Positions 3,675 to 24,407 of a stretch of DNA of 24,407 nt are shown one piece after another. Source of the stretch: a virus; IMG/VR virus record IMGVR_UViG_3300031963_000897, positions 1 through 24,407 of that record. One strand, 5' to 3'. Numbering within the stretch: position 1 is the first letter of the stretch; every line of letters starts with the position of its first letter. Both the position numbers and the translations under genes were made by a program. The notes under the pieces were generated by a model that did not search any database, was not told where the DNA came from, and saw nothing but the letters and a program-made list of their open reading frames with translations.

Positions 3675-4172
3675 ATGATCTACACCACACTCAACCGCGT
3701 GCGGGAACACCACCCATGCGCTGACGGCTGGCGCAAACTGCTGACGCATCTCAACAAGACGCAGGCAGACGACGAGCCGCTGGCGCTCGCCACGATCCTC
3801 CAGTCTAACGGTCTGGACGACGCAATCTGGTGCCTGCGAGCAGTCGATGGCCACGAGAAGGAGATGCGCCTCTACGCTGTCTGGTGTGCACGGCAGGTGC
3901 AGCACCTGATGAAAGACCCACGCAGTCTGGCCGCGCTCGACGTTGCGGAACGCCACGCGCATGGACAAGCGACGGATGATGAGTTGGCCGCAGCGGGGGC
4001 CGCAGCGTGGGCCGCAGCGTGGGACGCAGCAAGGGAAGCAGCGTGGGCCGCAGCGTGGGCCGCAGCGAGTGCCGCAGCGGTGGCGGCGTGGGACGCAGCG
4101 TGGGACGCAGCGAGTGCCGCAGCGCGTGAGGCGCAGATCGCTGAGTTCGTTCGTGTGTTCTGTCATAACTGA
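3675..4172 (+). CDS. Phage protein with Ala/Trp tetrapeptide-repeat tail
   Basis: This 165-aa protein has two parts. Residues 1-104 are globular and helical: MIYTTLNRVREHHPCADGW, then IWCLRAV, AVWCARQVQHL and DPRSLAALDVAERHAHGQAT. Residues 105-150 are an alanine array of four-residue units of the form A-A-A/W-x with W, D, R, E, S or V interspersed (AAWAAAWDAAREAAW), which should form a long helix. Proteins of this plan are frequent in phages of Proteobacteria and are sometimes labelled putative immunity proteins, but I know of no demonstrated function. The tail is encoded by a 12-base GC-rich repeat, so its length may vary between relatives. AGGA upstream of the ATG is a weak ribosome site. 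It is followed closely by the Sak4-like gene. Confidence 0.8.
   Translation: MIYTTLNRVREHHPCADGWRKLLTHLNKTQADDEPLALATILQSNGLDDAIWCLRAVDGHEKEMRLYAVWCARQVQHLMKDPRSLAALDVAERHAHGQATDDELAAAGAAAWAAAWDAAREAAWAAAWAAASAAAVAAWDAAWDAASAAAREAQIAEFVRVFCHN
3987..4124 (+). repeat. 12-base coding tandem repeat (Ala-rich tail)
   Basis: Imperfect 12-base units based on GCCGCAGCGTGG and GACGCAGCGTGG recur in frame. Interruptions are whole codons, so the reading frame is kept. The antisense frames open here only because of the repeat composition. Confidence 0.75.
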
Positions 4173-10026: not shown

Positions 10027-10196
10027 AATGGTATGAGCTTGAGGATGAGAAGGCGAGACAGGCTCACGCTCGCTTGTCTCTGGAGTTGCCTGTGCATTTT
10101 CATTCGCCGCTGAAGATTAGCCAGCCGGTAGAAAAAGATGAACGACAGGATGAATACATACCCGCGTGGAAGCGCAGAGGAGTGTGGGATGTCTGA
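10023..10196 (+). CDS. Hypothetical 57-aa protein
   Basis: This is an unrecognised, hydrophilic protein: MKWYELEDEKARQAHARLSL, then a His/Pro segment (ELPVHFHSPLKI) and an acidic-to-basic tail ending AWKRRGVWDV. It is joined to the previous gene by ATGA and its last 8 bases overlap the next start. The AGAGGAG encoded near its end is the ribosome site of the next gene. This interlocking supports it as a real gene despite its size. Confidence 0.5.
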   Translation: MKWYELEDEKARQAHARLSLELPVHFHSPLKISQPVEKDERQDEYIPAWKRRGVWDV

Positions 10197-11067
10197 CCTA
10201 CGAACCGCCGCCCAGCAGGCGCTGGAGGCGTTGGAGGCGTATTTGAGCGATGAGTTGCGCCCCTACGAGGCAGCGAAAACTGCCGACGCCCTCCGCGCCG
10301 CGCTGGCGCAGGCCAATGCTGGAAACCCGATCACCGACTACTGGTTTGAGCACTATGTAAAGCGCGGGCTGTGCAGCTTGTGCGGCAATTACGGAGTCAT
10401 TGACACGAGAGGAACAAGGACGCCTGCTGGCGTTGCTGTTGGTGCGTTGCATTTCTGTATTTGCCCGAACGGGCAAAAGCGGCGCGAGGCCGGGCGCGCG
10501 CTGGCGCAGGAGCCCGAGCCGGTGCAGGAGCCGGCTTGCAGTTGCAGCCTACGAGGCAGGCTGGTCGGTGACGGCTGCGAGGTATGCAACCCAGAGTTGG
10601 CAGCGGAACTGCGGCAGCAGCCCGAGCCGGTGCAGGAGCCGGTGGCGTGGATGTGGAAAGAGCGCGTGAATGGCGATTTTGATAGCGCGTGGCGGGTAAC
10701 AAGATGCGAACCCCCACCCTACGCAATCGAACAGCAACCCCTCTACACCGCACCCACCCCGCGCAAGCCTGAGACTGAGCAGGAGCCGGTGGCGTGGAGG
10801 GTGATGCTGCCGGACGGGTATCAGTTCGTATACGACGAAAGAATGCTGCGAGTTATCGACGAGGGCATTCACGCGACCAGACAGCCCCTCTACACCACCC
10901 CACCCCAGCGCCCGCCGCTGACGGATGAGGAGATTCTTGCGGCTGTTGGCTGGGAACGTTCTGAGATGTACATGAAGCTGGTCTCAAACTTCCCAGTGGA
11001 TGAAGCGAAACAAGAAACGCTGAAAAATGCCCGCGCCGTCGAGCGCAAGGTGAGGGGAGTGTGGTGA
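10189..11067 (+). CDS. Modular Ea22-like phage protein with Cys clusters
   Basis: This 292-aa mosaic is not a recognised enzyme. It holds a helical MSDLRTAAQQALEALEAYLS start, a Cys module (WFEHYVKRGLCSLCGNYGVI, then HFCICPNGQKRR), a second Cys module (CSCSLRGRLVG, then CEVCNPELAAEL), two EPVAW...PLYT modules and a closing PLTDEEI plus helical tail. Linkers are EPEPVQEP-type repeats. I know these pieces in different combinations from phage accessory proteins, some loosely called Ea22-like. ATG 10189 is preferred to 10138 because AGGAG precedes it and MSDLRTAAQQALEALE is the usual family start. The adjacent gene shares its last modules at the DNA level. Confidence 0.72.
   Translation: MSDLRTAAQQALEALEAYLSDELRPYEAAKTADALRAALAQANAGNPITDYWFEHYVKRGLCSLCGNYGVIDTRGTRTPAGVAVGALHFCICPNGQKRREAGRALAQEPEPVQEPACSCSLRGRLVGDGCEVCNPELAAELRQQPEPVQEPVAWMWKERVNGDFDSAWRVTRCEPPPYAIEQQPLYTAPTPRKPETEQEPVAWRVMLPDGYQFVYDERMLRVIDEGIHATRQPLYTTPPQRPPLTDEEILAAVGWERSEMYMKLVSNFPVDEAKQETLKNARAVERKVRGVW
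10888..10934 (+). repeat. 47-base coding repeat, copy 1
   Basis: It encodes LYTTPPQRPPLTDEEI. It matches 11475-11521 at 44 of 47 bases by direct comparison. Confidence 0.85.
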
Positions 11068-11648
11068 TGAACGACAAGCTACTGATCGACCGCGCAACGA
11101 TTGCGCAGGCGCTGGAGGCGTTCCGCATGTGCGTGCCTATGGACGGCAAACATGCCGAGGTGGATGCCGCATTCAGGAATCTCCGCGCCGCGCTGGCGCG
11201 GCAGGCTGAGCCGGTGGCAGCCGTTGCAGAAAATGCAACAGCTCAACAGCGCGTTGTCGAGACGCCTCCGTCCGATTACCGGCGCGGCTACTGGGACGGA
11301 TTCAACATCGGCAAACGCGAGGGGCGCATTGAGGCAGAAGACGCCCTGGCGCAGCAGCCCGAGCCGGCGCAGGAGCCGGTGGCGTGGATTCAACCCGACC
11401 ATCTTCAGAAGGCTCGTGTTGCGCCGTTCCTGTGTCGTGTCGAGCCGACGCAGCGGTGCGCTGATTTTGTCGCCATCTACACCACCCCGCCCCAGCGCCC
11501 GTCGCTGACGGATGAGGAGATCACAGACGCCGTGCGAGAGGCCGACCTTGATTGGCAGGCGGGCTGGACGCTAGACGAGCATGAGCCAAACCGATTTACC
11601 ACGCTTGCCCGCGCCATCGAGCGCAAGGTGAGGGGAGAGAAGGAATGA
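11067..11648 (+). CDS. Second Ea22-like modular protein, partial paralogue of its neighbour
   Basis: This 193-aa protein begins MNDKLLIDRATIAQALEAFR with RNLRAALARQAEP, then a DYRRGYWDGFNIGKREGRIE segment, an EPAQEPVAWIQ linker and module, IYTTPPQRPSLTDEEI, and a tail ending RAIERKVRGEKE. The PVAW, YTTPPQRP-LTDEEI and ERKVRG blocks are shared in order with the upstream protein, including near-identical DNA (10888-10934 with 11475-11521; 11029-11059 with 11607-11637). The middle is unrelated. The ATG at 11067 shares its A with the upstream TGA and has GGGGAG upstream. The function is unknown. Confidence 0.72.
   Translation: MNDKLLIDRATIAQALEAFRMCVPMDGKHAEVDAAFRNLRAALARQAEPVAAVAENATAQQRVVETPPSDYRRGYWDGFNIGKREGRIEAEDALAQQPEPAQEPVAWIQPDHLQKARVAPFLCRVEPTQRCADFVAIYTTPPQRPSLTDEEITDAVREADLDWQAGWTLDEHEPNRFTTLARAIERKVRGEKE
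11475..11521 (+). repeat. 47-base coding repeat, copy 2
   Basis: It encodes IYTTPPQRPSLTDEEI in the downstream paralogue, 44 of 47 bases identical to copy 1. The 31-base gene-end segments 11029-11059 and 11607-11637 (30 of 31 identical) form a second matched pair. Confidence 0.85.
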
Positions 11649-14934: not shown

Positions 14935-15152
14935 TGCCGTGGGTTCTAGTGCGCAAACTCATTGGACCGGGGAGCTACTGGGGGATGTCGCGCGAACACT
15001 TGGAATCTGCCATCACTCGCGCCCGTGGCATGGGGCGCGAGGATGCAGCAGAGCACATTGCCATCATCCTAGACTTGCGCAACCAAGTCGCTTTTGACGA
15101 CCCGCCTAGCGCTGCGTCTTGTCCATCTGACGCTTGTCCATCTGACGAATGA
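14934..15152 (+). CDS. Hypothetical 72-aa protein, last gene of the rightward block
   Basis: This protein is unrecognised. It begins MPWVLVRKLIGPGSYWGMSR, followed by helices (EHLESAITRARGMGREDAAE, then HIAIILDLRNQ) and a short Cys/Ser/Pro tail with the doubled unit CPSDACPSDE. The tail is encoded in the part that overlaps the convergent virion gene, where a 15-base tandem repeat lies, so its sequence may be a by-product of that gene. ATG 14934 (TGATG coupling) is preferred to GTG 14922. Confidence 0.6.
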   Translation: MPWVLVRKLIGPGSYWGMSREHLESAITRARGMGREDAAEHIAIILDLRNQVAFDDPPSAASCPSDACPSDE

Positions 15153-17163
15153 ACTCTTCAATGTCGCGCCCCGGAACAGAGACTTCTTCTTTGGAAAGAA
15201 ACTGCTCAATGTCGCCGGGCTCTTTTTCCGTTGCCGGCGGCGCAGGCAATGCAGAGATAGCCGCGCCAGACGTTGCTCCAAGCTCTCGACTAGTTGCCGC
15301 TGCCTGACGAGGTACGGCACGCTCAGCGTACTTCTCAAGCACTCTTACGACATCAGCGACATCCTGCGGGCTCTTGCTCATCAGCATGCCGGCGAGCTTG
15401 TCGGCCATTTCCTCGGTCATCGTGGTCTTGTACAGTGCCCGCGATGCCATGCCAGTTAGTGACGACATCCATCCGCCCGTCAGCGCTTGGGCGGCAGCTT
15501 GCGTCACGCTCTCTTCGCCCTCAAACTTTTCGCGCATGGCGGTGCGCTTGCCGGTTTGCGACCCGCGAAGGATCTGATTGGCCTGCTTGAACAGTTGAGA
15601 CTCCCGCGCGACAGCAGCCTCAAAGAGCCTGTAATGCGCAGGGCTGTCAAAGAGCACCTGCATCTTGGCTTTTGTTTCAGGAGACTCTAGCAGCGCAGCA
15701 GCGTTTATGTTGCGGCTGGTGCTGAAAATCTTACCGTACATATCTCGCACGACACCAGTGCGGAAAGCATCTTTCTCGGCATTGGTCATGCCGCTGACGA
15801 GCTTGGCGACCTCCTCGTGGTCGAGCTTGCCAAAGTCTCGATATCCAGATTGCAGGGCATCCAGAATTTCGCGGTCGCCAGCGTAAGTGTCCAGAGCTTG
15901 CCGGTACTCAGGAACCACTTCTTTGGTGCGATCCCGCAAAGCGTTGCGCAGATCCTTCATGGCCGACGTAGACGCGAGCGTAGCCGCGTTGTCGGACTTG
16001 TAGCCTGCGGTGATTTGAGCGTCTAGCGCTCGCTTCATGTAATCCAGCGTGCGGACATCCGGCACAGTGCCGGCAACCTCTACATCAATCGGAGCCCCGG
16101 TCTTGGGGTCGTATTGAACTTTGTAGATGTCGCGCAGTTTGAATGCATTAGGATCAAACGGCTGGCCACTGCGCATAGCATTGACCTGAGCAGCAGCGGC
16201 ATCAGAGTCCGCAATCTTGCGCGCCGTGTCCCATGCGCCCTTGAACTGCGGAAGGGCCAACATCTCCATGATCTGCGGGTCATCAACTTCACCAAAGGCG
16301 TAAGCGCGCTGATACGCAGGCGCAGCCTTGCTGCGAAGATCATTCATCAAGCGCTCTTCCTCCGCATAAAATTCCCCAGGCTGAAGCCCCTTGCGCGCCT
16401 GTTGATAGACGCGCTCGCGCCCGCCGGCCTGTTGTTGAGTGAGCGTTTGTTCGACCTTGCGAGTGCCTCGCCCTGTTCGCTGAGCCAGCGTCTCTGCGAG
16501 ATCAGCTAGTGCGGGATCGACGTTTGCCACCGTTGATGGCACACCCATCGCACGGTCGCGGCGCATGGCTTGTTCAATCTGTTGAGGCGTAAGACGCGCC
16601 TCGCCCATCGCCTCGGTGAACTTTTGCGCTGCGCGCTCAGTAGACCGGGCGGAAGAGGGGGCCAGTCTTTCAAACGCCCATTTGGCAAAGCTGCTGCCGC
16701 CACGAACCAACGGTGGCAGCGCCGCGCCAAACGCAGCCCCTATGCCGCCGCCAATCAGTGCGCCTGTGTCGCGGCTTTCTTCCGTTGCCGATCCCGCGCC
16801 ACTGATTGCGCCAGTCGTAGCACCAGTTGCAACGGCCCTGGTGATGGGCCGTGCGGCGATCCTTCCAAGCGCGCCAGTAATTTGAGCCGCCCCGGCAGGC
16901 TGGCCGCCCGGCACAAGCATCATTGCTGCTCCCGGCAGCACTCCACCACCCAATTCGCTGACGAAACTGGTGATGGGTGCTTTTTCGGCAAACGTGCCGT
17001 ATTCGCCGCGAATTTGCTTGAGCAGATCCTCGTATGAGCCTTGGCCGAGGCGCGAGCGCAGCCATGCTTCTGCTTCGTCGCCCCATCCCATGCCGAGACC
17101 TTGACCAAGCGCCCCACGGGCGCCGCCGATCAAAGCCTCGCGCGGTGTCATGTTGTCGGCCAT
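15106..17163 (-). CDS. Putative internal virion / DNA-ejection protein, 685 aa
   Basis: This is a large, Ala/Gly/Arg-rich protein placed last in the leftward late block. Residues 60-170 are hydrophobic and glycine-rich with small-residue spacing (SFVSELGGGVLPGAAMMLVP, GAISGAGSA, GALIGGGIGAAFGAALPPLV), like the glycine zippers of membrane-penetrating ejection proteins. The rest is long helices with high charge, for example an SARSTERAAQKFTEAM region and LDYMKRALDAQITAGYKSD. The C-terminus is acidic with a QMDKRQMDK repeat. No enzymatic motif is seen. An internal virion or ejection role is inferred from composition and neighbours, not from a named family. Its ATG overlaps the upstream stop (TAATG), so it is coupled to the 770-aa gene. 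Confidence 0.68.
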   Translation of the reverse strand: MADNMTPREALIGGARGALGQGLGMGWGDEAEAWLRSRLGQGSYEDLLKQIRGEYGTFAEKAPITSFVSELGGGVLPGAAMMLVPGGQPAGAAQITGALGRIAARPITRAVATGATTGAISGAGSATEESRDTGALIGGGIGAAFGAALPPLVRGGSSFAKWAFERLAPSSARSTERAAQKFTEAMGEARLTPQQIEQAMRRDRAMGVPSTVANVDPALADLAETLAQRTGRGTRKVEQTLTQQQAGGRERVYQQARKGLQPGEFYAEEERLMNDLRSKAAPAYQRAYAFGEVDDPQIMEMLALPQFKGAWDTARKIADSDAAAAQVNAMRSGQPFDPNAFKLRDIYKVQYDPKTGAPIDVEVAGTVPDVRTLDYMKRALDAQITAGYKSDNAATLASTSAMKDLRNALRDRTKEVVPEYRQALDTYAGDREILDALQSGYRDFGKLDHEEVAKLVSGMTNAEKDAFRTGVVRDMYGKIFSTSRNINAAALLESPETKAKMQVLFDSPAHYRLFEAAVARESQLFKQANQILRGSQTGKRTAMREKFEGEESVTQAAAQALTGGWMSSLTGMASRALYKTTMTEEMADKLAGMLMSKSPQDVADVVRVLEKYAERAVPRQAAATSRELGATSGAAISALPAPPATEKEPGDIEQFLSKEEVSVPGRDIEEFIRQMDKRQMDKTQR
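15118..15147. repeat. 15-base tandem repeat in the convergent gene overlap
   Basis: Two exact copies of CTTGTCCATCTGACG lie back to back. They are read as CPSDA/CPSDE rightward and as RQMDK twice leftward, so the same DNA forms the C-terminal tails of two opposite genes. Confidence 0.85.
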
Positions 17164-19475
17164 TACTGCGCTCCTTCAATTGACGGGGTAGTGGTGCGGA
17201 ATTGGCCGGAGCGGATGAGGTTGACACGCTCTTGCTCTCGGATTTTGCGCGCTTTCAGCAGCCGGTAGGTGTTGGCCATGATTAGTTCGCGCTCGGTTTT
17301 GCTCTTGCTGTCCAGACCTTCCAAGTCCATGAGAGCCGCGCGTTCGCCTTCAGTCGGGTTGCCGCCAAAGGATGCGCGCAGTTTCTCAATTGCGCCTCGG
17401 CCCAACAGATTGCGTTGTGCGCGGGTAGCCAGCACGCGCGGATCATCAGGGTCCATTTGCTCAGTGACTTTTTGCTGAGCAATGCCAGCCCAAGTACCGT
17501 CAAAGGTGTCTGGATTGATAGCAAACGCCCGTGCAAGCACCGAAATCGAATCGTTCAACGCGCCGAGCGTTTGGATGCCTTCATCCAGCATCTTGGTCTC
17601 GGTCGGCGAAAGCTTTTGAGCCTCAGTGGCTTTGCGAGCAGACTCTTCCTGCTTGATGCCGAGACCGGCTTGCGCTACACCAAGATTGCCTTGAGCGATT
17701 GCAAGCTGTGCCTGCTTAAACATCTCGCCGGAAGCAAGCTTGCGCTCAACATACGAACTCACAAAGTCGTTGTAATCCTTCGTGCCTGGAGAAAGGCCCA
17801 TGTCCGCAGCCGCTTTCCCAGCCTCAGACTGCGGGCGCCCGCTCTTCATGTATTCCATCAGCAACGCCCGCCGATCTTTCATCTCTTCGCCAGCCAGCCC
17901 GCGCAGCGAGGCGACGTCTTCGCGCGCGGCGCCGACGCGCGACTTGGCGATCTCCATCGCAAGCTGACGGCGCATCTGCTCATCAGCCCTGCGGGTGGCC
18001 CTAATCTCTTGCCGATGCGAAGCAAGTTCCTTGCCCACCGCGCCCAAAGTCTCCCCTATCGTGCCGGTCCGCGTCGGAGCACCAAAAGCTGCTGCAAGCC
18101 GGAAATAAAGCTCAGCCTTGTCCGGGGGGTCACGTTCGCTTGTGGCCATTTGGCGCAGCATCTGCTCAAAATTGGCGCTCTCTGCTGCTGCCCGTTCGCG
18201 CGCAGCACGCAGTTCCGGTCCATAGGACGATTCTTGCCCCATGTAGCGCTGCACCATCGACATCAGATCCATCGCAGGCGGCGACACAGGCGTCGTGGGG
18301 GTCGCAGGAGGCACAACAGGCTGCGCAGCAGGAGAATCAATGATTGCCGGAGCCATTGGCGCAGGCATGGCAGGCGCAGGCATAGCAGGCGCAAGCATGG
18401 CAGGCTCGACACCTCGCGGCATGACCAGTCCTGGCACATCAGATCCCATGCTCAGTTCCGTCTCAAACTCCTGCTCTTCTTCGCCGTCCCGACCGCCGCG
18501 CGCAAACTTGCGAACCGTCCCGCCGTTGGCGTATTTGCGCGCCAGCGCATGGACTCCGCCACCGTGTGCGTAACCGGATGGGGGTTCAGAATACATACCC
18601 TCGCTTGGCACCGTTGCACTAGCCCCCGACCAAGCAGTCCCAGCCGGCCTGCCCAGCAGGACATTGCGAGCCTCCATCATTTGCTGGTCGGTCGCGCCGC
18701 GTGCCCGCGCCTGCTGAATGATCTGATCTTCCGTCATCCCTTGCGTGGAAAGCTGACGGTAGTAGTTCGCAAGCCCCTGCGGGCTCATGTCGAGCACGCC
18801 ACCAGTCGGCACAACACTGGGCGCGGCTGGCGCGGCCGGCGTTGCCTGCGTTTGTCCTGCAAGCTGATTGGCCTGAGCCCACGAACTGCCAGCAGGAACA
18901 CCCAGCAGCAGATTGCGAGCCTCATTCATCTGCGTATCAGTGACCCCCCTGCCACGAAGGTGCGAAACCATTTCCGACTCAGGCATCCCTGCCGTCCGCG
19001 CAAGCCCATAATAGTCTGCAAGCGCTTGCGGTGTGCGACCCTGCTCACCAGGAACCGCAGGACGCAGTGTGGCAGCCGGAGCGCGCAGCACGTTGCCCCA
19101 GTAGTTGCCAGTCGCATCATAAATGTCACGGTTGCTGATGCCAGTGGCTTGCTGCGCCGCACGAATCTGCTCATTAGACGCGTTGGGGTTCGCCGCAACT
19201 GCCGAGCGAATCTGATCCTGCAACCCTTGCAGACCAATCCCGCCGGGTGAAGTTACGCCTTGCACCGCAGGCGACGCATCACTGTAATCGCCCGCAGGCG
19301 TCGTGCGAAACTGCGCCTGAAGATACTGCGGCGTGTTCGCAATCCTGCTGATGAAGTCCTGTCGATACTGATCGTAAGCGGCGCGGGTCGCGTCAGTGGC
19401 TTCCTTGGGTGGCGGGGCAATCGTTGGCGTTGCAACACCCAGTTCGCGCATCAGACGATTGAGTTCAAAGCCCAT
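17163..19475 (-). CDS. Putative structural protein with repeated helical modules, 770 aa
   Basis: This protein is of virion type. Residues 150-199 and 234-283 are tandem copies of one module: ALADYYGLARTAGMPESEMV ... LLLGVPAGSSWAQ and GLANYYRQLSTQGMTEDQII ... LLGRPAGTAWSG. A shorter related helix pair lies near 82-120. A Gly-rich stretch follows (GYAHGGGVHALARKYANGG, then TVRKFARGG, 301-328), then an acidic patch and a Pro/Ala/Met linker (about 357-402). The C-terminal half is charged and helical (ELRAARERAAAESANFEQML, then RATRRADEQMRRQLAMEIAK), likely coiled coil. AAGGGG lies before the ATG, 10 bases after the giant repeat gene. Large proteins of this plan are found in tail or ejection modules of environmental phages; the exact role is unknown. 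Confidence 0.66.
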   Translation of the reverse strand: MGFELNRLMRELGVATPTIAPPPKEATDATRAAYDQYRQDFISRIANTPQYLQAQFRTTPAGDYSDASPAVQGVTSPGGIGLQGLQDQIRSAVAANPNASNEQIRAAQQATGISNRDIYDATGNYWGNVLRAPAATLRPAVPGEQGRTPQALADYYGLARTAGMPESEMVSHLRGRGVTDTQMNEARNLLLGVPAGSSWAQANQLAGQTQATPAAPAAPSVVPTGGVLDMSPQGLANYYRQLSTQGMTEDQIIQQARARGATDQQMMEARNVLLGRPAGTAWSGASATVPSEGMYSEPPSGYAHGGGVHALARKYANGGTVRKFARGGRDGEEEQEFETELSMGSDVPGLVMPRGVEPAMLAPAMPAPAMPAPMAPAIIDSPAAQPVVPPATPTTPVSPPAMDLMSMVQRYMGQESSYGPELRAARERAAAESANFEQMLRQMATSERDPPDKAELYFRLAAAFGAPTRTGTIGETLGAVGKELASHRQEIRATRRADEQMRRQLAMEIAKSRVGAAREDVASLRGLAGEEMKDRRALLMEYMKSGRPQSEAGKAAADMGLSPGTKDYNDFVSSYVERKLASGEMFKQAQLAIAQGNLGVAQAGLGIKQEESARKATEAQKLSPTETKMLDEGIQTLGALNDSISVLARAFAINPDTFDGTWAGIAQQKVTEQMDPDDPRVLATRAQRNLLGRGAIEKLRASFGGNPTEGERAALMDLEGLDSKSKTERELIMANTYRLLKARKIREQERVNLIRSGQFRTTTPSIEGAQ
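18618..18776 (-). repeat. Module 2 of the two-copy repeat in the 770-aa protein
   Basis: It encodes residues 234-286: QGMTEDQIIQQARARGATD followed by QMMEARNVLLGRPAG. The conserved positions form two helices with a G-T/A-T-D-x-Q-M turn, repeated at an 84-residue offset. Confidence 0.7.
18870..19028 (-). repeat. Module 1 of the two-copy repeat in the 770-aa protein
   Basis: It encodes residues 150-202. The motif AGMPESEMVSHLRGRGVTD followed by QMNEARNLLLGVPAG aligns without gaps to module 2. Confidence 0.7.
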
Positions 19476-19485
19476 TTTTTACCCC

Positions 19486-22400
19486 TTATCCCAGATTCTG
19501 AAGCCCGCGCCCGACCAGCGCCAGTTGCGCCAGTTGCGTGAGCCCCGATGGAGAGTATGCTTGACCAGTTGCTTGCGTCGAACTGGTTTGCGTGGTTGGC
19601 GTAATCGGGGCGATGCCACGCAGTTGATTGTTGAGCCACTCGGCCTGCTGCCTAGCATAATCCCGTTCAGCCGCAAACTGCTGGTAAGCAGCATCGTATT
19701 GGCGTTGTTGCTGCGCCTGCTGAGAGGCGCCGGCAGCTTCCAGCGACGCAACATCAGCGGCGCGAAGACCTTGCTCTTGTTGAGCCAGCGTTGCAATTTG
19801 TTGCAGAGCCGACTGTTGCCGTGCAAGATCAGTTGAGCGTGCGGTCGCTGCCGTATTCGCAAGGTTCGTCAGCGCGGCCTGTTGGCCGGCAGTCAGATTG
19901 CCCATCAGTTGGGCCTGCTGGCCGTACTGCTGCGCCCCCTGCAACTGCTGCCCAATCGCCGACTGTTGCAACCCAGCCAGAGCCTGCCCGCCTTGCAAGA
20001 TTGCCTGCTGTTGGGCGCTTGTCAGTGCGCCAACATTCTGGCCAATCTGCCCAAGCTGCGCAGCGCCAGTCAAGCGCTGGCCAATCGCGGCCTGCTGTGT
20101 CCCGGCGAGAGCTTGCCCGACATTCAGCAACGCGGCTTGCTGCGCCTGAGTCAAGCCGCCAAGCGTCTGACCAACCTGCCCCATCTGCGCCGCGCCTGCG
20201 AGTTGCTGCGCGATTTGTTGCTGATACGCGCCCTGCGCGGCTTGTCCCGCTCCCAGCAGCGTAGCCTGTTGCGCTTGCGTGAGGCCGCCGAGGATTTGGC
20301 CCATCTGGCCCAGTTGCGTGCCGCCAGACAACATCCTAGTCAGATCCGCCTGCTGCGCTGCCTGAGAGGCTTGCGCGGCTTGCAGCGCGGCGGCCTGCTG
20401 TTGCCCGCCAAACGTGCCCGCAATCTGCCCCAGTTGACCCTGGGCTTGCGCCGCAGCCAGCGCCCGAGCAACATCCGTTGCCTGCGCGCCCTGCGCCGCT
20501 TGCGCAGCCTGGAGGGCCGCTGCCTGCTGCTGGCCTGCAAAGCCACCAGCAACCTGCCCCAACTGCCCCTGCGCCTGCGCTGCTGCGAGGATGCGAGCAG
20601 CGTCAGTCGTTTGAGCGGATTGAGCAGCTTGAGCAGCTTGCAGAATCGCAGCTTGCTGTTGAGTCCCGAGAGCCCCCAGCGCTTGCCCAAACTGACCTTG
20701 CGTTTGCGCTGCTGCTAGAGCCCGAGCGGCATCGCTGGTCTGAGCGGCTTGCGTGGCCTGTGCGGCTTGCAGTTGCGCCGCCTGTGCCTGCGTGCCAAGA
20801 CCGCCCATCGTGCCTGCCAGTCCTGCCTGCGCCTGCGCCGCCGCCAAGGCTCGCGCCGCGTCAGTCGATTGAGCGGCTTGCGTGGCCTGCGCAGCTTGCA
20901 GAGCAGCGCCTTGCTGTTGCGTCCCCAGCGCGCCAAGCGTTTGCCCAACCTGGGCCTGAGCCTGCGCCGCAGCCAGCGCGCGCGCCGCATCGGTCGCTTG
21001 CGCAGCCTGCGTAGCCTGCGCTGCCTGCAATTCAGCAGCCTGCTGTTGCGTACCCAGCGCGCCAGTGACCTGACCAATCTGAGCCTCTTGCTGCGCAGCG
21101 GCGAGCGCTCGCGCTGCATCCGAAGTCTGTGCCGCCTGTGCCGCTTGGGCGGCTTGCAGAGCAGCAGTCTGTTGCTGAGTGCCCAGCGCGCCAGCCGCTT
21201 GGCCCAGTTGGCCCTGCGCTTGCGCAGCAGCAAGTGCGCGCGCGGCGTCTGTTGCTTGAGCAGCTTGCGCAGCTTGCGCGGCGCCAAGTTCCGCAGCCTG
21301 CTGCTGAGTGCCAAGCGTGCCAAGCGCTTGCCCTGCTTGCGTCTGCTGCTGAGCCGCAGCAAGCGCTCGGGCCGCATCTGATGCTTGCGCAGCCTGCGCT
21401 GCTTGTGCCGCGCTCACGCCCAGTTGCTGTTGACCAAGGCCCGCCGCCGTCTGCGCTTGCCCCAAGCTTGCGAGCGCTTGCGCCTGCTGCGCCGTAAGTT
21501 GCCCCGTCGTCTGCCCCAGTTGGGCCAGCGTTTGCATCTGCTGCCCAGTCAACTGCCCAGCCGTCTGGCCGAGTTGCGCAAACTGCCCGGCGCCTTGCAG
21601 GATGCGCGAAAGATCCGCACCGGCCACTTGGCCAGCAGTCCCGGCAAGTTGGGCCTGCCGCGCAAGATCCGCCTGCGCTGCGCTAACGGCCTGCCCGTAG
21701 CCTTGTTGCAGGGCCTGCGACTGTTCGCGCAGGATCGCCTCTTGAGTGTCGCGCAGCGCGCGGCGCCCGAACTCACCCATGCGGCTTGAGCCAAACTGCC
21801 CAGCCCGCACAAAGGCATCGGAAACCTCGGGCAGCAGGTTCTCTCGCAGATTCCGCGCGCCACGCTGCGCGATTGCGTTAAGCACCCCCTCTTGATATGG
21901 GCTCATGTACTGCTGGACCCCGCCCGCCGCAGTGCCCGCCGCCGCTTGCATATAAGGCTGAGCAGCCGCGAACGCTCGCTCAGCAAGCGATTGGCCAGCA
22001 GCCTGACCGGACATCCCCAGGAACGGCTGAGCCGCTGCCATGAGATCGTATCCAGCCGCGCGCTCCAGCATAGGCGCCGCAGCCTGCGCTGCATCCATCG
22101 CCCCAGCGCGGCCAAACGCAGTCTGCCCCGCGCCCAGCGCTTGCTGCGCCAGTGAGGGTTGCAGGTACTGCCCTTGCGCAGCCTCTAGCTGATTGGCGGT
22201 TTCAATATCCCCCGCTGCTGCGGCGCGCTGCGCTGCATCGCTCAGGTATGGTTGGGCGATGTCCAATCCGCCACGTTGCAGCGCACCGGCCTGCGCTGCC
22301 TCAAGTCGGTTGGCGGTTTCGATGTCCCCAGCCGCTGCGGCGCGTTGTGCGGCATCGCTGAAATAAGGCTGCGCAACGTCCAGGCCGCCCCGCTGAAGGG

Positions 22401-23880
22401 CGGCGGCTTGTGTTGCCTCCAGCCGGTCAGCAGTCTCAACATCTCCCGCATCAGCCGCCCGTTGCGCTGCCGCGCTCAGATACGGGCGCGCCGCTCCAAT
22501 GCCGCTGCGGGTTAGAGCGTCCTGCTGAGCCGCAGAGAGTTGCCCAGCAGTCTGCACAGCACCCGCTGCGCCCGCGCCTGCCGCAGCAGTGCCAAGCAGC
22601 GGCTGAGCAATGTCCAGACCACCGCGCTGAAGCGCACCGGCTTGCGCTGCTTCCAGCCGGTTGGCCGTTTCGATGTCACCAGCAGCAGCAGCGCGCCGTG
22701 CGGCGTCGCTTGCATACGGCTGCGCGGTTGTGAGCCCGCTTTGCTGCAGAGCAGCCTGTTGGGCAGATCGCAGTTGCTCGGCAGTCTGAACACCACCGGC
22801 CGCACCCGCTTGCTCAGCAGCAGCACCAATCATCGGCTGGGCAATGCTCAGGCCAGATTGCGCAAGGCCCGCAGCTTGATCAGCGCGCAGTTGCTCGGCG
22901 GTACGGATGCCTGCCGCTTCGCCAATGCCTGCGCCTGCCGCACCCAGATACGGGGCCGCCGCGCCAAGAGCACTGCGTTGCAGCGCAGCAGATTGATCAG
23001 CTCGGAGTTGGGAAGCAGTATCGGCAGCCCCAGCAGCAGCAAGGCCAGTGCCGGCAGTTGCAAGATACGGCGCCGCCGCCGTAGTCGCGCCTTGCGCCAA
23101 AGCGCCCGCTTGGTCGGCGCGAAGCTGCCCAGTAGTTCCTTGGGTTGCTGCGCCGCCAATCAGCCCAACCCCTTGCGACACCAGCGGCTGCGCGGCGCCC
23201 ACGGTGCTCATGCCCGTAGCGCCAGACACAAATGGCTGAAGTGCCCGCACGCCCGCGCTGTAGTCCATCCCCTGCAACTGACCGACTTGGTTTTGCAGGA
23301 AAGGCGCAGCAGCACCGACCCCGCTCATGCCGCCAGCGGTTGTTGCATATGGGGACAGGTAGCCGAGCGATGCCCCGTAATTCATGCCGCCCAGTTGCGC
23401 AGCTTGCTGCTGGAAATACGGGTTTGCAGCAGCCGCACCACTGGTCTGAAGAGCCTGACCAACAAAGGGCGCATACGTCCCAGCGGGCTGAGCATAGTTG
23501 ATGCCGCGCAGCATGGAAGACTGTTGCTGCATTGCAGGCTGCGCCGCGCCAACTTGATTAAGCGCGCCTGCTTGAGAGATGAACGGTTGAGCCGCTGCTG
23601 CGCCGCCAGGGCCTTGCGCAATCTGTTGGGTGCCTCTTGCAGCAGTCTGAAACGCCGGCCGGTATGCCCCCGCGTTTTGTCGAGCCTGCGTGTATGCCTG
23701 CTGTTGCAGTGGCGACAGTTCAGCAACCGTCGGCAGGTTGTACGCTTGGTAAGGCGTGGCCGCGACATTGAGCGCGGCATTGACCTGATTGTAAATAGCC
23801 TCCTGCATCCACCTCGGCGTTTCCGTTGAGGAGGTCGTCGCCGAAAAAGACGACAGAGGGGTGCCTTGGAAAATGCTCAT
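19486..23880 (-). CDS. Giant Ala/Gln-rich repeat virion protein, 1464 aa
   Basis: This is a probable structural or DNA-delivery protein. The N-terminus (about 20-85: TPRWMQEAIYNQVNAALNVA, then TPYQAYNLPTVAELSPLQQQ) resembles the start of large virion proteins I know from environmental phages. Then come three 39-residue units (124-240), eight exact 39-residue units (253-564) and a non-repeat domain (about 580-760), whose block QQYMSPYQEGVLNAIAQRG ... VRAGQFGSSRMGEFGRRALR is also familiar from such phages. Twelve exact 43-residue units follow (824-1339), then a helical coil to about 1418 and a Thr/Gln/Ser tail. There are almost no Cys residues and no catalytic motif. The start is fixed by an ATGA overlap with the upstream gene. 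A long fibrous or rod-like helical body is the best structural guess. Relatives may differ in repeat number. Confidence 0.75.
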   Translation of the reverse strand: MSIFQGTPLSSFSATTSSTETPRWMQEAIYNQVNAALNVAATPYQAYNLPTVAELSPLQQQAYTQARQNAGAYRPAFQTAARGTQQIAQGPGGAAAAQPFISQAGALNQVGAAQPAMQQQSSMLRGINYAQPAGTYAPFVGQALQTSGAAAANPYFQQQAAQLGGMNYGASLGYLSPYATTAGGMSGVGAAAPFLQNQVGQLQGMDYSAGVRALQPFVSGATGMSTVGAAQPLVSQGVGLIGGAATQGTTGQLRADQAGALAQGATTAAAPYLATAGTGLAAAGAADTASQLRADQSAALQRSALGAAAPYLGAAGAGIGEAAGIRTAEQLRADQAAGLAQSGLSIAQPMIGAAAEQAGAAGGVQTAEQLRSAQQAALQQSGLTTAQPYASDAARRAAAAGDIETANRLEAAQAGALQRGGLDIAQPLLGTAAAGAGAAGAVQTAGQLSAAQQDALTRSGIGAARPYLSAAAQRAADAGDVETADRLEATQAAALQRGGLDVAQPYFSDAAQRAAAAGDIETANRLEAAQAGALQRGGLDIAQPYLSDAAQRAAAAGDIETANQLEAAQGQYLQPSLAQQALGAGQTAFGRAGAMDAAQAAAPMLERAAGYDLMAAAQPFLGMSGQAAGQSLAERAFAAAQPYMQAAAGTAAGGVQQYMSPYQEGVLNAIAQRGARNLRENLLPEVSDAFVRAGQFGSSRMGEFGRRALRDTQEAILREQSQALQQGYGQAVSAAQADLARQAQLAGTAGQVAGADLSRILQGAGQFAQLGQTAGQLTGQQMQTLAQLGQTTGQLTAQQAQALASLGQAQTAAGLGQQQLGVSAAQAAQAAQASDAARALAAAQQQTQAGQALGTLGTQQQAAELGAAQAAQAAQATDAARALAAAQAQGQLGQAAGALGTQQQTAALQAAQAAQAAQTSDAARALAAAQQEAQIGQVTGALGTQQQAAELQAAQATQAAQATDAARALAAAQAQAQVGQTLGALGTQQQGAALQAAQATQAAQSTDAARALAAAQAQAGLAGTMGGLGTQAQAAQLQAAQATQAAQTSDAARALAAAQTQGQFGQALGALGTQQQAAILQAAQAAQSAQTTDAARILAAAQAQGQLGQVAGGFAGQQQAAALQAAQAAQGAQATDVARALAAAQAQGQLGQIAGTFGGQQQAAALQAAQASQAAQQADLTRMLSGGTQLGQMGQILGGLTQAQQATLLGAGQAAQGAYQQQIAQQLAGAAQMGQVGQTLGGLTQAQQAALLNVGQALAGTQQAAIGQRLTGAAQLGQIGQNVGALTSAQQQAILQGGQALAGLQQSAIGQQLQGAQQYGQQAQLMGNLTAGQQAALTNLANTAATARSTDLARQQSALQQIATLAQQEQGLRAADVASLEAAGASQQAQQQRQYDAAYQQFAAERDYARQQAEWLNNQLRGIAPITPTTQTSSTQATGQAYSPSGLTQLAQLALVGRGLQNLG
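19864..21411 (-). repeat. Twelve 43-aa (129-base) repeats in the giant protein
   Basis: Residues 824-1339 are twelve units of exactly 43. The first eight follow AAQAAQAAQATDAARALAAA, then a Q-rich turn, GALGTQQQ and AALQ. The last four (from 1168) replace the DAAR part with QQ/IGQ-L-x-G and carry GGLTQAQQA. No unit has gained or lost a residue. Confidence 0.9.
22189..23124 (-). repeat. Eight 39-aa (117-base) repeats, type B, in the giant protein
   Basis: Residues 253-564 divide into eight units of exactly 39 with no indels. The consensus is L-[RE]-A-x-Q-x-x-A-L-x-x-x-G-L-x-x-A-x-P-Y-x, ending in ETANR/Q or QTAEQ. A truncated ninth unit begins at 565. Units 7 and 8 differ at 5 of 39 residues but at about 30 of 117 bases by hand count. 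Confidence 0.9.
23161..23511 (-). repeat. Three 39-aa repeats, type A, in the giant protein
   Basis: Residues 124-162, 163-201 and 202-240 share L-x-G-[IM]-[ND]-Y at the start and G-A-A-x-P-[YFL] later on (LRGINYAQPAG, LGGMNYGASLG, LQGMDYSAGVR). They have the same length as the type B units that follow after a 12-residue linker. Confidence 0.75.
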
Positions 23881-24407
23881 CGTGCGACTCCCGACAGGTA
23901 TGCCATCGGCTGTTTAGCATTTGGGCTGAACTTGCCGCGCGCGAGCGCTTTGCCCTTGTGTTTTCGGATTTTGCTCCGCATCGCATCAAGCCTGCGGGCG
24001 CCCTCATCAACCGACCCATCGCCCAGCATGGAAACAGTTTCAGCATCCATCACATACTCACCATCGCTCAGCCGAGCATCAATGGTGTCGTCTCGACCAG
24101 ATCCGCCGCCACGCACAAATCGAGCAACTGCGCTGAGCGGGCCGCCTTGAGCATATGCCATGCCGCCGCGCGCCATTTGTTGTTGCGGTTGCGCATAGGC
24201 CGCTTGTTGCGCGCCACCCATGCCGTAACCGCTAATGATGGGCCAGTTGGTCGCCATGTATTGGGCGAGCCCCATGTTGGAGGAGGCTGCGTCAGCCTGC
24301 ATTCTGTCCCAGTCCCACGACATCGCCGGCCGGTCGAAAAATGCCTGCTGCTCTGGGGACAGTTGCGAGATCGCTTGCTGCACAGCAGGAGGCTTGCTTC
24401 CGGCCCC
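23877..24407 (-). CDS. Putative virion protein with Gly-rich 'SDGEYVMDAE' motif (partial, 5' end beyond the window)
   Basis: The frame is open to the right edge, so at least 176 residues are present and the true start is outside; the GTG at 24383 is internal. Features are LSPEQQAFFDRPAMSWDWDR, a Met/Gly/Gln-rich stretch (MARGGMAYAQGGPL), then VRGGGSGRDDTIDARLSDGE and YVMDAETVSMLGDGS, and a basic end (DAMRSKIRKHKGKALARGKF). The GGGSGRDDTI-x-A-x-LSDGEYVM motif is frequent in large tail, tape-measure or ejection proteins of phages and marks a small beta module of unknown role. It overlaps the giant repeat gene by ATGA, so the block is one leftward operon whose promoter lies beyond the window. 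Confidence 0.7.
   Translation of the reverse strand, partial: GAGSKPPAVQQAISQLSPEQQAFFDRPAMSWDWDRMQADAASSNMGLAQYMATNWPIISGYGMGGAQQAAYAQPQQQMARGGMAYAQGGPLSAVARFVRGGGSGRDDTIDARLSDGEYVMDAETVSMLGDGSVDEGARRLDAMRSKIRKHKGKALARGKFSPNAKQPMAYLSGVAR

Follow-up and report, generated by a model that had tools for sequence, protein, structure and literature searches.

Mirrored repeat arrays with equal numbers of units flank the core of a putative phage ejection protein

The window analysed here is the whole stretch of 24,407 nucleotides of the IMG/VR virus record IMGVR_UViG_3300031963_000897. On its minus strand, a single open frame encodes a repeat protein whose composition is 28% Ala, 19% Gln and 12% Gly, and in which two conserved terminal domains enclose an upstream arm of tandem units, a core and a downstream arm of tandem units (Table 1). 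The record begins inside the gene that precedes the repeat gene, and the evidence on adaptor and nozzle genes given below comes from relatives only. Gly/Arg-rich motifs were seen in the products of both adjacent genes, namely GGPLSAVARFVRGGGSGRDDTIDARLSDGEYVMDAETV in 23877-24407(-) and HGGGVHALARKYANGGTVRKFARGG in 17163-19475(-), and the first of these proteins shows a weak match to the C-terminal parts of tape-measure families.

Table 1. Features of the repeat gene and its neighbours, in the direction of the gene (residue numbers are those of the repeat protein)
Feature	Position in the window	Strand	Basis or remark
3'-end of the neighbouring upstream gene	23877..24407	-	overlaps the start of the repeat gene; 544-653 aa by frame in relatives
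Whole repeat protein, 1464 aa	19486..23880	-	open frame and relatives
Conserved N-terminal domain, residues 1-91 (ETPRWMQEAIYNQV..LSPLQQQAY)	23608..23880	-	kept in 64 relatives
Upstream arm, four class B 39-mers, residues 92-247	23140..23607	-	identity matrix, best two-class split 4 and 9
Upstream arm, nine class A 39-mers, residues 248-598	22087..23139	-	identity clustering, parse, 288-residue stretch
Upstream arm, two 16-mers, residues 599-630	21991..22086	-	parse with profiles from short relatives only
Core, residues 631-768	21577..21990	-	contains the stretch of invariant length QYMSPYQ..ADLSR (103 aa)
Downstream arm, two 18-mers, residues 769-804	21469..21576	-	parse with profiles from short relatives
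Downstream arm, nine class A 43-mers, residues 805-1191	20308..21468	-	period identity and clustering
Downstream arm, four class B 43-mers, residues 1192-1363	19792..20307	-	class break from clustering
Conserved C-terminal domain, residues 1364-1464 (LEAAGxxQQ..WLNNQLRGIAPITP)	19489..19791	-	conserved in relatives
Next gene, 770-aa protein	17163..19475	-	relatives also have a large frame here
Third gene of the set, 685-aa protein, phrog_5880 (no known function)	15106..17163	-	profile match

Read outward from the core, both sides of the protein show the same succession of two short units, nine class A long units and four class B long units, that is, each arm is the mirror image of the other, and the paired arrays take up about 1,130 residues. 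The identity of the downstream array at a shift of 43 residues was 0.68, while 200 composition-preserving shuffles reached 0.27 at most, and the period-39 identity at residues 230-620 was 0.51, compared with a shuffle maximum of 0.23. When the units were clustered by identity, with no pairing assumed, the upstream array was split into four and nine units and the downstream array into nine and four. Furthermore, the class A 43-mers differ from each other mostly at third codon positions (984 differences, compared with 427 at first and 340 at second positions), therefore synonymous change dominates and the repeats are maintained as protein.

The first-pass annotation had described twelve 43-mers at residues 824-1339, eight of one class and four of another. 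The gap-free cut holds, but in the phase set by the relatives the array starts at residue 805 and has 13 units up to residue 1363; the earlier cut of this same array came 19 residues late, and by clustering the class break falls after the ninth unit. Moreover, this array is one half of the architecture; its mirrored partner array of thirteen 39-mers (residues 92-598), which is the main feature, went unseen, and so did the flanking 16-mers and 18-mers. Regarding the parsing, the 16-mers and 18-mers were located blind with the profiles from short relatives. The blind parse recovered the core-proximal 39/43 pair and only part of the diverged long-unit arrays, which were therefore tiled in the window by their exact period.

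Scans of IMG/VR gave more than 100 relatives and one scan of GTDB genomes gave 3 more in MAG contigs, whereas an IMG/VR scan with the 43-mers alone confirmed no relative. Most of the closer relatives have 16-mers upstream and 18-mers downstream, with one 39-mer and one 43-mer outermost from the core. The window's 39-mers look like multiplications of this lone 39-mer (GTADQLRAEQAKYLRQDLVGKGLDTGQELFGRAAGMDIV in L014), whose counterpart is the last class A 39-mer of the window (residues 560-598), and its 43-mers look in the same way like multiplications of the lone 43-mer of the short relatives. The segment that starts with the core-proximal 39-mer, contains the core and closes with the first 43-mer is exactly 288 residues long in L003, in L005 and in the short relatives with two short units per arm (n=2). 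According to the tiling it has this length in the window too (residues 560-847), and it aligns without gaps between the window protein and the n=2 relatives. The core contains the only part matched in the cultured Caulobacter phages RW, RLK, KcrB and GB2A (57% identity). The best cultured relative is gp065 of phage RW, which shares the 57% identical core, is likewise followed by two large genes and has 333 residues.

We measured the lengths of the arms in 78 distinct proteins, with the lone 39-mer, the core and the lone 43-mer as anchors; for L003 and L005 this anchored measurement covers only the two core-proximal short units. In 74 of the 78, the downstream length is 5+18n and the upstream length is -3+16n, with 0 to 8 residues over, and n takes the values 0, 1, 2, 3, 4, 5, 6, 8, 10 and 16. 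The other four (L135, L140, L136 and L143) belong to offset subfamilies, and the difference between L135/L140 and L136 is again +16/+18. None of the 78 distinct proteins has arms that are out by a whole unit. The correlation between the arm lengths was 0.9986, and 0.997-0.999 on phylogenetic contrasts; the tree requires at least 36 changes of the downstream unit count, and in 100,000 shuffles equal counts were reached in at most 27 of 66. Three proteins (L016, L082 and L086) are about 19 residues long upstream when measured from the N-terminal block, but they follow the rule with the 39-mer as anchor, therefore the extra residues precede the arm.

Counting unit by unit, we found 8 upstream and 8 downstream units in L010, 10 and 10 in L007, 14 and 14 in L009 and L023 (which are the two ends of one contig) and 16 and 16 in L151. 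In L024, the protein with most units, 26 were counted downstream and 17 or more upstream, where its 5'-end is cut. Thus the number of short units seen in the family goes from 0 to 26, and the downstream arm varies more than 10-fold in residues. Many different unit lengths among relatives had been put forward beforehand as an argument against a strict architecture. Other lengths do occur (16/18 in most relatives, 39/43 in L003 and L005), but they occur in matched pairs, a result that fits neither of the two alternatives foreseen.

The order of the unit types is mirrored in the relatives too. L003 has two short units, five class A and four class B units outward from the core on both sides. In L005, tiled by hand from the sequence and in part also recovered by the automatic parse, the upstream arm reads outward 2x16, 5x39, 4x16 and 1x39, plus three extra residues, and the downstream arm 2x18, 5x43, 4x18 and 1x43, that is, 2-5-4-1 in mirrored order.

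Gains and losses of units are also paired, at mirrored positions. L177 lacks exactly 32 residues upstream and 36 residues downstream with respect to the nearly identical L174. Between L010 and L007, with each arm aligned separately, units were gained at positions 2 and 7 in both arms, and in L024 a block of four units at positions 9-12 recurs at positions 13-16 in both arms. The two arms agree in seven of the eight unit pairs from L010 to L009, and in seven of the nine from L003 to the window protein. Three pairs of markers can be followed as well: KAADPYLQRAS-LDVI stands opposite NIGQTYGQLTNQQMQ, -YFDKA- opposite -TNQEAQNLI and -SKSG- opposite NMGQS-, at positions 3, 4 and 5 in L010, 4, 5 and 6 in both L007 and L009, and 6, 7 and 8 in L024.

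When the similarity matrices of the two arms were compared, the antiparallel correlation was higher than the parallel one in the window protein (0.74 vs -0.55), L003 (0.55 vs -0.16), L024 (0.48 vs -0.27) and L151 (0.36 vs -0.22), with the limits that in L024 and L151 a register shift of one unit scores as well or better and that at zero shift the test is uninformative in L007, L010 and L009/L023. As a separate observation, superperiods of two units recur upstream (32 residues) in L024, L151, L174 and L177, and downstream (36 residues) in L024, L151 and part of L177, which looks as if odd and even units differed structurally. In the distant relatives L021 and L025, the autocorrelation peaks lie at 48 residues upstream and 36 downstream, which equal three and two short units.

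Regarding the identity of the protein, searches of PHROGs and Pfam with the window protein gave no match. Nevertheless, some relatives match the profile of phrog_4287, annotated as DNA ejection protein, namely L014 (E 2e-7), L005 (3e-7) and Caulobacter RW gp065 (2e-9), while the window protein and L003 do not match it at 1e-3. The composition alone is not the cause of these matches, because the window protein is richer in Ala and Gln and gets none. The members of phrog_4287 include gp21 and gp22 of the Kuravirus SU10, which are ejection proteins by experiment (PMC9509320); their genes are adjacent (L221:13905-15938) and their products are 31% identical. An hhalign comparison against this pair alone was weak (probability 6%). 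The SU10 proteins are also Gln-rich, belong to the same profile family as L014, L005 and RW gp065, have SU10-type adaptor and nozzle families nearby and resemble the shortest members of our family in length. They differ from the window protein in that they have 350 and 322 residues, and a scan for periods revealed no strong periodicity of 16/18 or 39/43 in them. No match to phrog_598, the family of P22 gp7, was obtained with either the window protein or L014.

The neighbourhood of the gene points in the same direction. An SU10-type adaptor lies near the repeat gene in L014 (PF24175) and in L005 (phrog_2941), and both encode the nozzle family phrog_3287, which the SU10 nozzle gp17 also matches; the L005 contig carries terminase, portal and head genes as well. 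In the family loci that we checked, the order is adaptor, a protein of about 400 aa, nozzle, a protein of about 540-650 aa, the repeat protein and two more large genes, the last two varying in size (L008, for example, has 521 and 1017 aa). In Caulobacter phage RW, the third gene of the corresponding set carries a lytic transglycosylase domain, as expected of an ejection set. The profile matches of the relatives and this neighbourhood support the inference that the window protein is an ejection protein, and it is probably among those that are sent into the bacterium before the DNA. In SU10 itself, the proteins gp20-24 are present in the virion and lost on genome release (PMC9509320).

We consider it likely that the protein is a giant podovirus-type ejection (internal virion) protein, of the family to which SU10 gp21/gp22 belong, with a fixed core and two arms that pair unit by unit. 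The equal numbers, the common order and the matching places of change suggest this physical pairing, with the arms leaving the core in one direction. The k-th upstream unit outward from the core would pack on the k-th downstream unit, a 16-mer with an 18-mer and a 39-mer with a 43-mer, and both arms would run next to each other from the core, forming a hairpin or standing like the staves of a barrel, so that each added pair would lengthen the arms by one step. The paired arms may form the wall of a channel, or a precursor of it that is folded inside the head, and the number of units might set the length of that channel, perhaps to suit the host envelope; this part we only infer. In a bolder reading, the two arrays might be paired like the strands of a stem and change in length during evolution solely when matching units are inserted or lost at mirrored places, which would make a modular, length-adjustable ejection channel whose size is readable from the sequence. 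If the number of units does set the length of the channel, the family is a natural length series for studying how short-tailed phages fit a channel to cell envelopes. In any case, the mirror rule makes it possible to derive structural pairing over long distances from nothing but the sequence, in a family for which structure prediction is unsuccessful. A further question is evolutionary, namely how the same number of units is gained at mirrored positions in two arrays of one gene (L010/L007, L174/L177).

The lengths of the units are compatible with helices. Helices of 5, 7 and 12 turns take up nearly 18, 25 and 43 residues. In each pair the upstream unit is the shorter one, the difference being 2 residues for short units and 4 for long units (39 = 23+16, 43 = 25+18). 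The unit of 43 had been thought to rule out a coiled-coil period, which was wrong arithmetic, since 43, although no multiple of 7 or 11, is 2x11 + 3x7 and equals 12 helical turns at 3.58 residues per turn; the length is thus no objection to a coiled coil. In a Fourier analysis of hydrophobicity, the strongest harmonic of the 18-mers was 3.6 (30-37%), whereas that of the 43-mers was 3.07, as AAQ triplets would give, and the 3.6 period was not seen in them. AlphaFold2 models were built for L013 with 64 sequences and for residues 404-1019 of the window protein with 16 sequences, and both were nearly all-helical. As their mean pLDDT was 55-56 and their pTM 0.23-0.28, they hold no evidence on contacts and we used them only for helix content; the N-terminal domain is among the better-predicted parts of the L013 model (pLDDT 70-79). 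With low confidence, each 39-mer of the window model forms a helix of about 33-36 residues and each 43-mer one of 37-38, with short loops in between. A disordered chain is therefore not indicated. The regular rod, scaffold, ruler or ejection conduit proposed at first sight is supported as far as a structural protein of strict unit length, possibly of the ejection apparatus given the phrog_4287 matches of relatives, but model confidence is too low to show a rod.

With these low-confidence models, Foldseek found no match in the PDB at E <= 0.001 (its single match had E 8), and VIA-align returned mostly generic helical bundles with Z at most 6.8, below the meaningful level for helical bundles. 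A PDB sequence search with the 64-sequence profile found no match. An arm that formed one straight helix would be 89 nm long in the window protein and 77 nm long in L024; with one layer of ~1 nm per unit, a spacing that we assumed, it would measure about 15 nm and 27 nm respectively. A straight helix of 89 nm is long for a periplasm, which means that the arms are folded or else that the idea of a channel does not hold.

Among known systems, the internal proteins T7 gp15, P22 gp20 and DEV gp72 are expelled to form a channel (PMC8954989, PMC10925440) and come from an analogous set of three genes. The window protein differs from them in having no sequence match to the solved structures, and mirrored arrays were not found for them in the passages of these reports that we examined. 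In the SMC and Rad50 proteins, the strands at either side of a domain form one arm, so their lengths must match, and natural SMC arm lengths are quantized (PMC5344682); the present arms would work in a similar manner. The window protein, unlike these, has no Pfam match to an ABC ATPase head, its arms are tandem modules of two kinds in mirrored order, and partner units differ in length. Thus both ejection proteins and paired antiparallel arms of quantized length were already known, whereas in the open-access literature we found no description of mirrored arrays of two module kinds with paired gain and loss, nor of mirrored or co-varying repeats in ejection proteins.

Several other explanations deserve consideration. 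The closest one is a variant of the reading that we prefer, in which the pairing takes place between chains, so that in a ring of subunits each upstream arm packs on the downstream arm of its neighbour and matched layers build the wall of a tube. Known ejection channels are indeed rings, a hexamer in T7 gp15 (PMC8954989) and a nonamer in DEV gp72/gp73 (PMC10925440). Both arrangements predict the same lockstep and mirror order, so the sequence data do not separate them; we regard pairing between chains as a serious possibility, although not the one that we favour. It is rather unlikely that the protein is a spacer or ruler inside the head, forming a core around the portal and having its number of units matched to the geometry of the head or of the DNA packing, instead of a conduit. 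SU10 heads do hold ejection proteins without resolved density (PMC9509320), and the more than 10-fold variation of the downstream arm exceeds the variation expected in envelope thickness. However, the relatives match a family whose SU10 members exit the particle on genome release (PMC9509320).

A tape measure that sets the tail length of a long-tailed phage would also account for strict periodicity and large length variation, and two further points fit it: the weak match of the upstream neighbour's C-terminal part to tape-measure families, and the fact that the authors of the Riverwalk phages appear to list a tape measure gene for that cluster (PMC11053796). Nevertheless, the repeat protein itself has no tape-measure match at 1e-3, and the SU10-type adaptor and nozzle next door in relatives are genes of short-tailed phages, which makes a tape measure highly improbable. 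Finally, many members of the family are related and metagenome assemblies can collapse repeats, therefore the equal arms might be a coincidence of relatedness or an artefact of assembly. We give this hardly any credence, because relatedness does not explain the 36 or more changes on the tree, the correlation of 0.997 on contrasts or the shuffles, which at most gave 27 equal counts in 66, and a collapse would unbalance the arms, whereas no member is unbalanced by a whole unit.

Some minor observations concern the relatives and the rest of the window. The repeat proteins of L174 and L177 carry some 60 extra C-terminal residues (DRRFKRNVSLIGENNGIKLYSFQYLW..YVGVMAQDLL), which may resemble the S74-type chaperone domain of tail fibres, and the distant relatives L021 and L025 have very cysteine-rich C-terminal tails (e.g. 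DSCACVNGSVGDCICCSCTCICCCVCC). The L142, L143 and L144 contigs were binned with Armatimonadetes, Gammaproteobacteria and Methylomonas MAGs, which may hint at hosts or prophages. In the window itself, a 165-aa frame at 3675-4172(+) has Ala/Trp/Asp repeats at its end (AAWAAAWDAAREAAWAAAWAAAS), where the DNA carries a tandem array with a 12-bp unit (3986-4124), and successive frames at 10138-11648(+) share the motif QQPEP.QEPVAW...PLYT.PPQRP.LTDEEI, apparently a duplicated family of small proteins.
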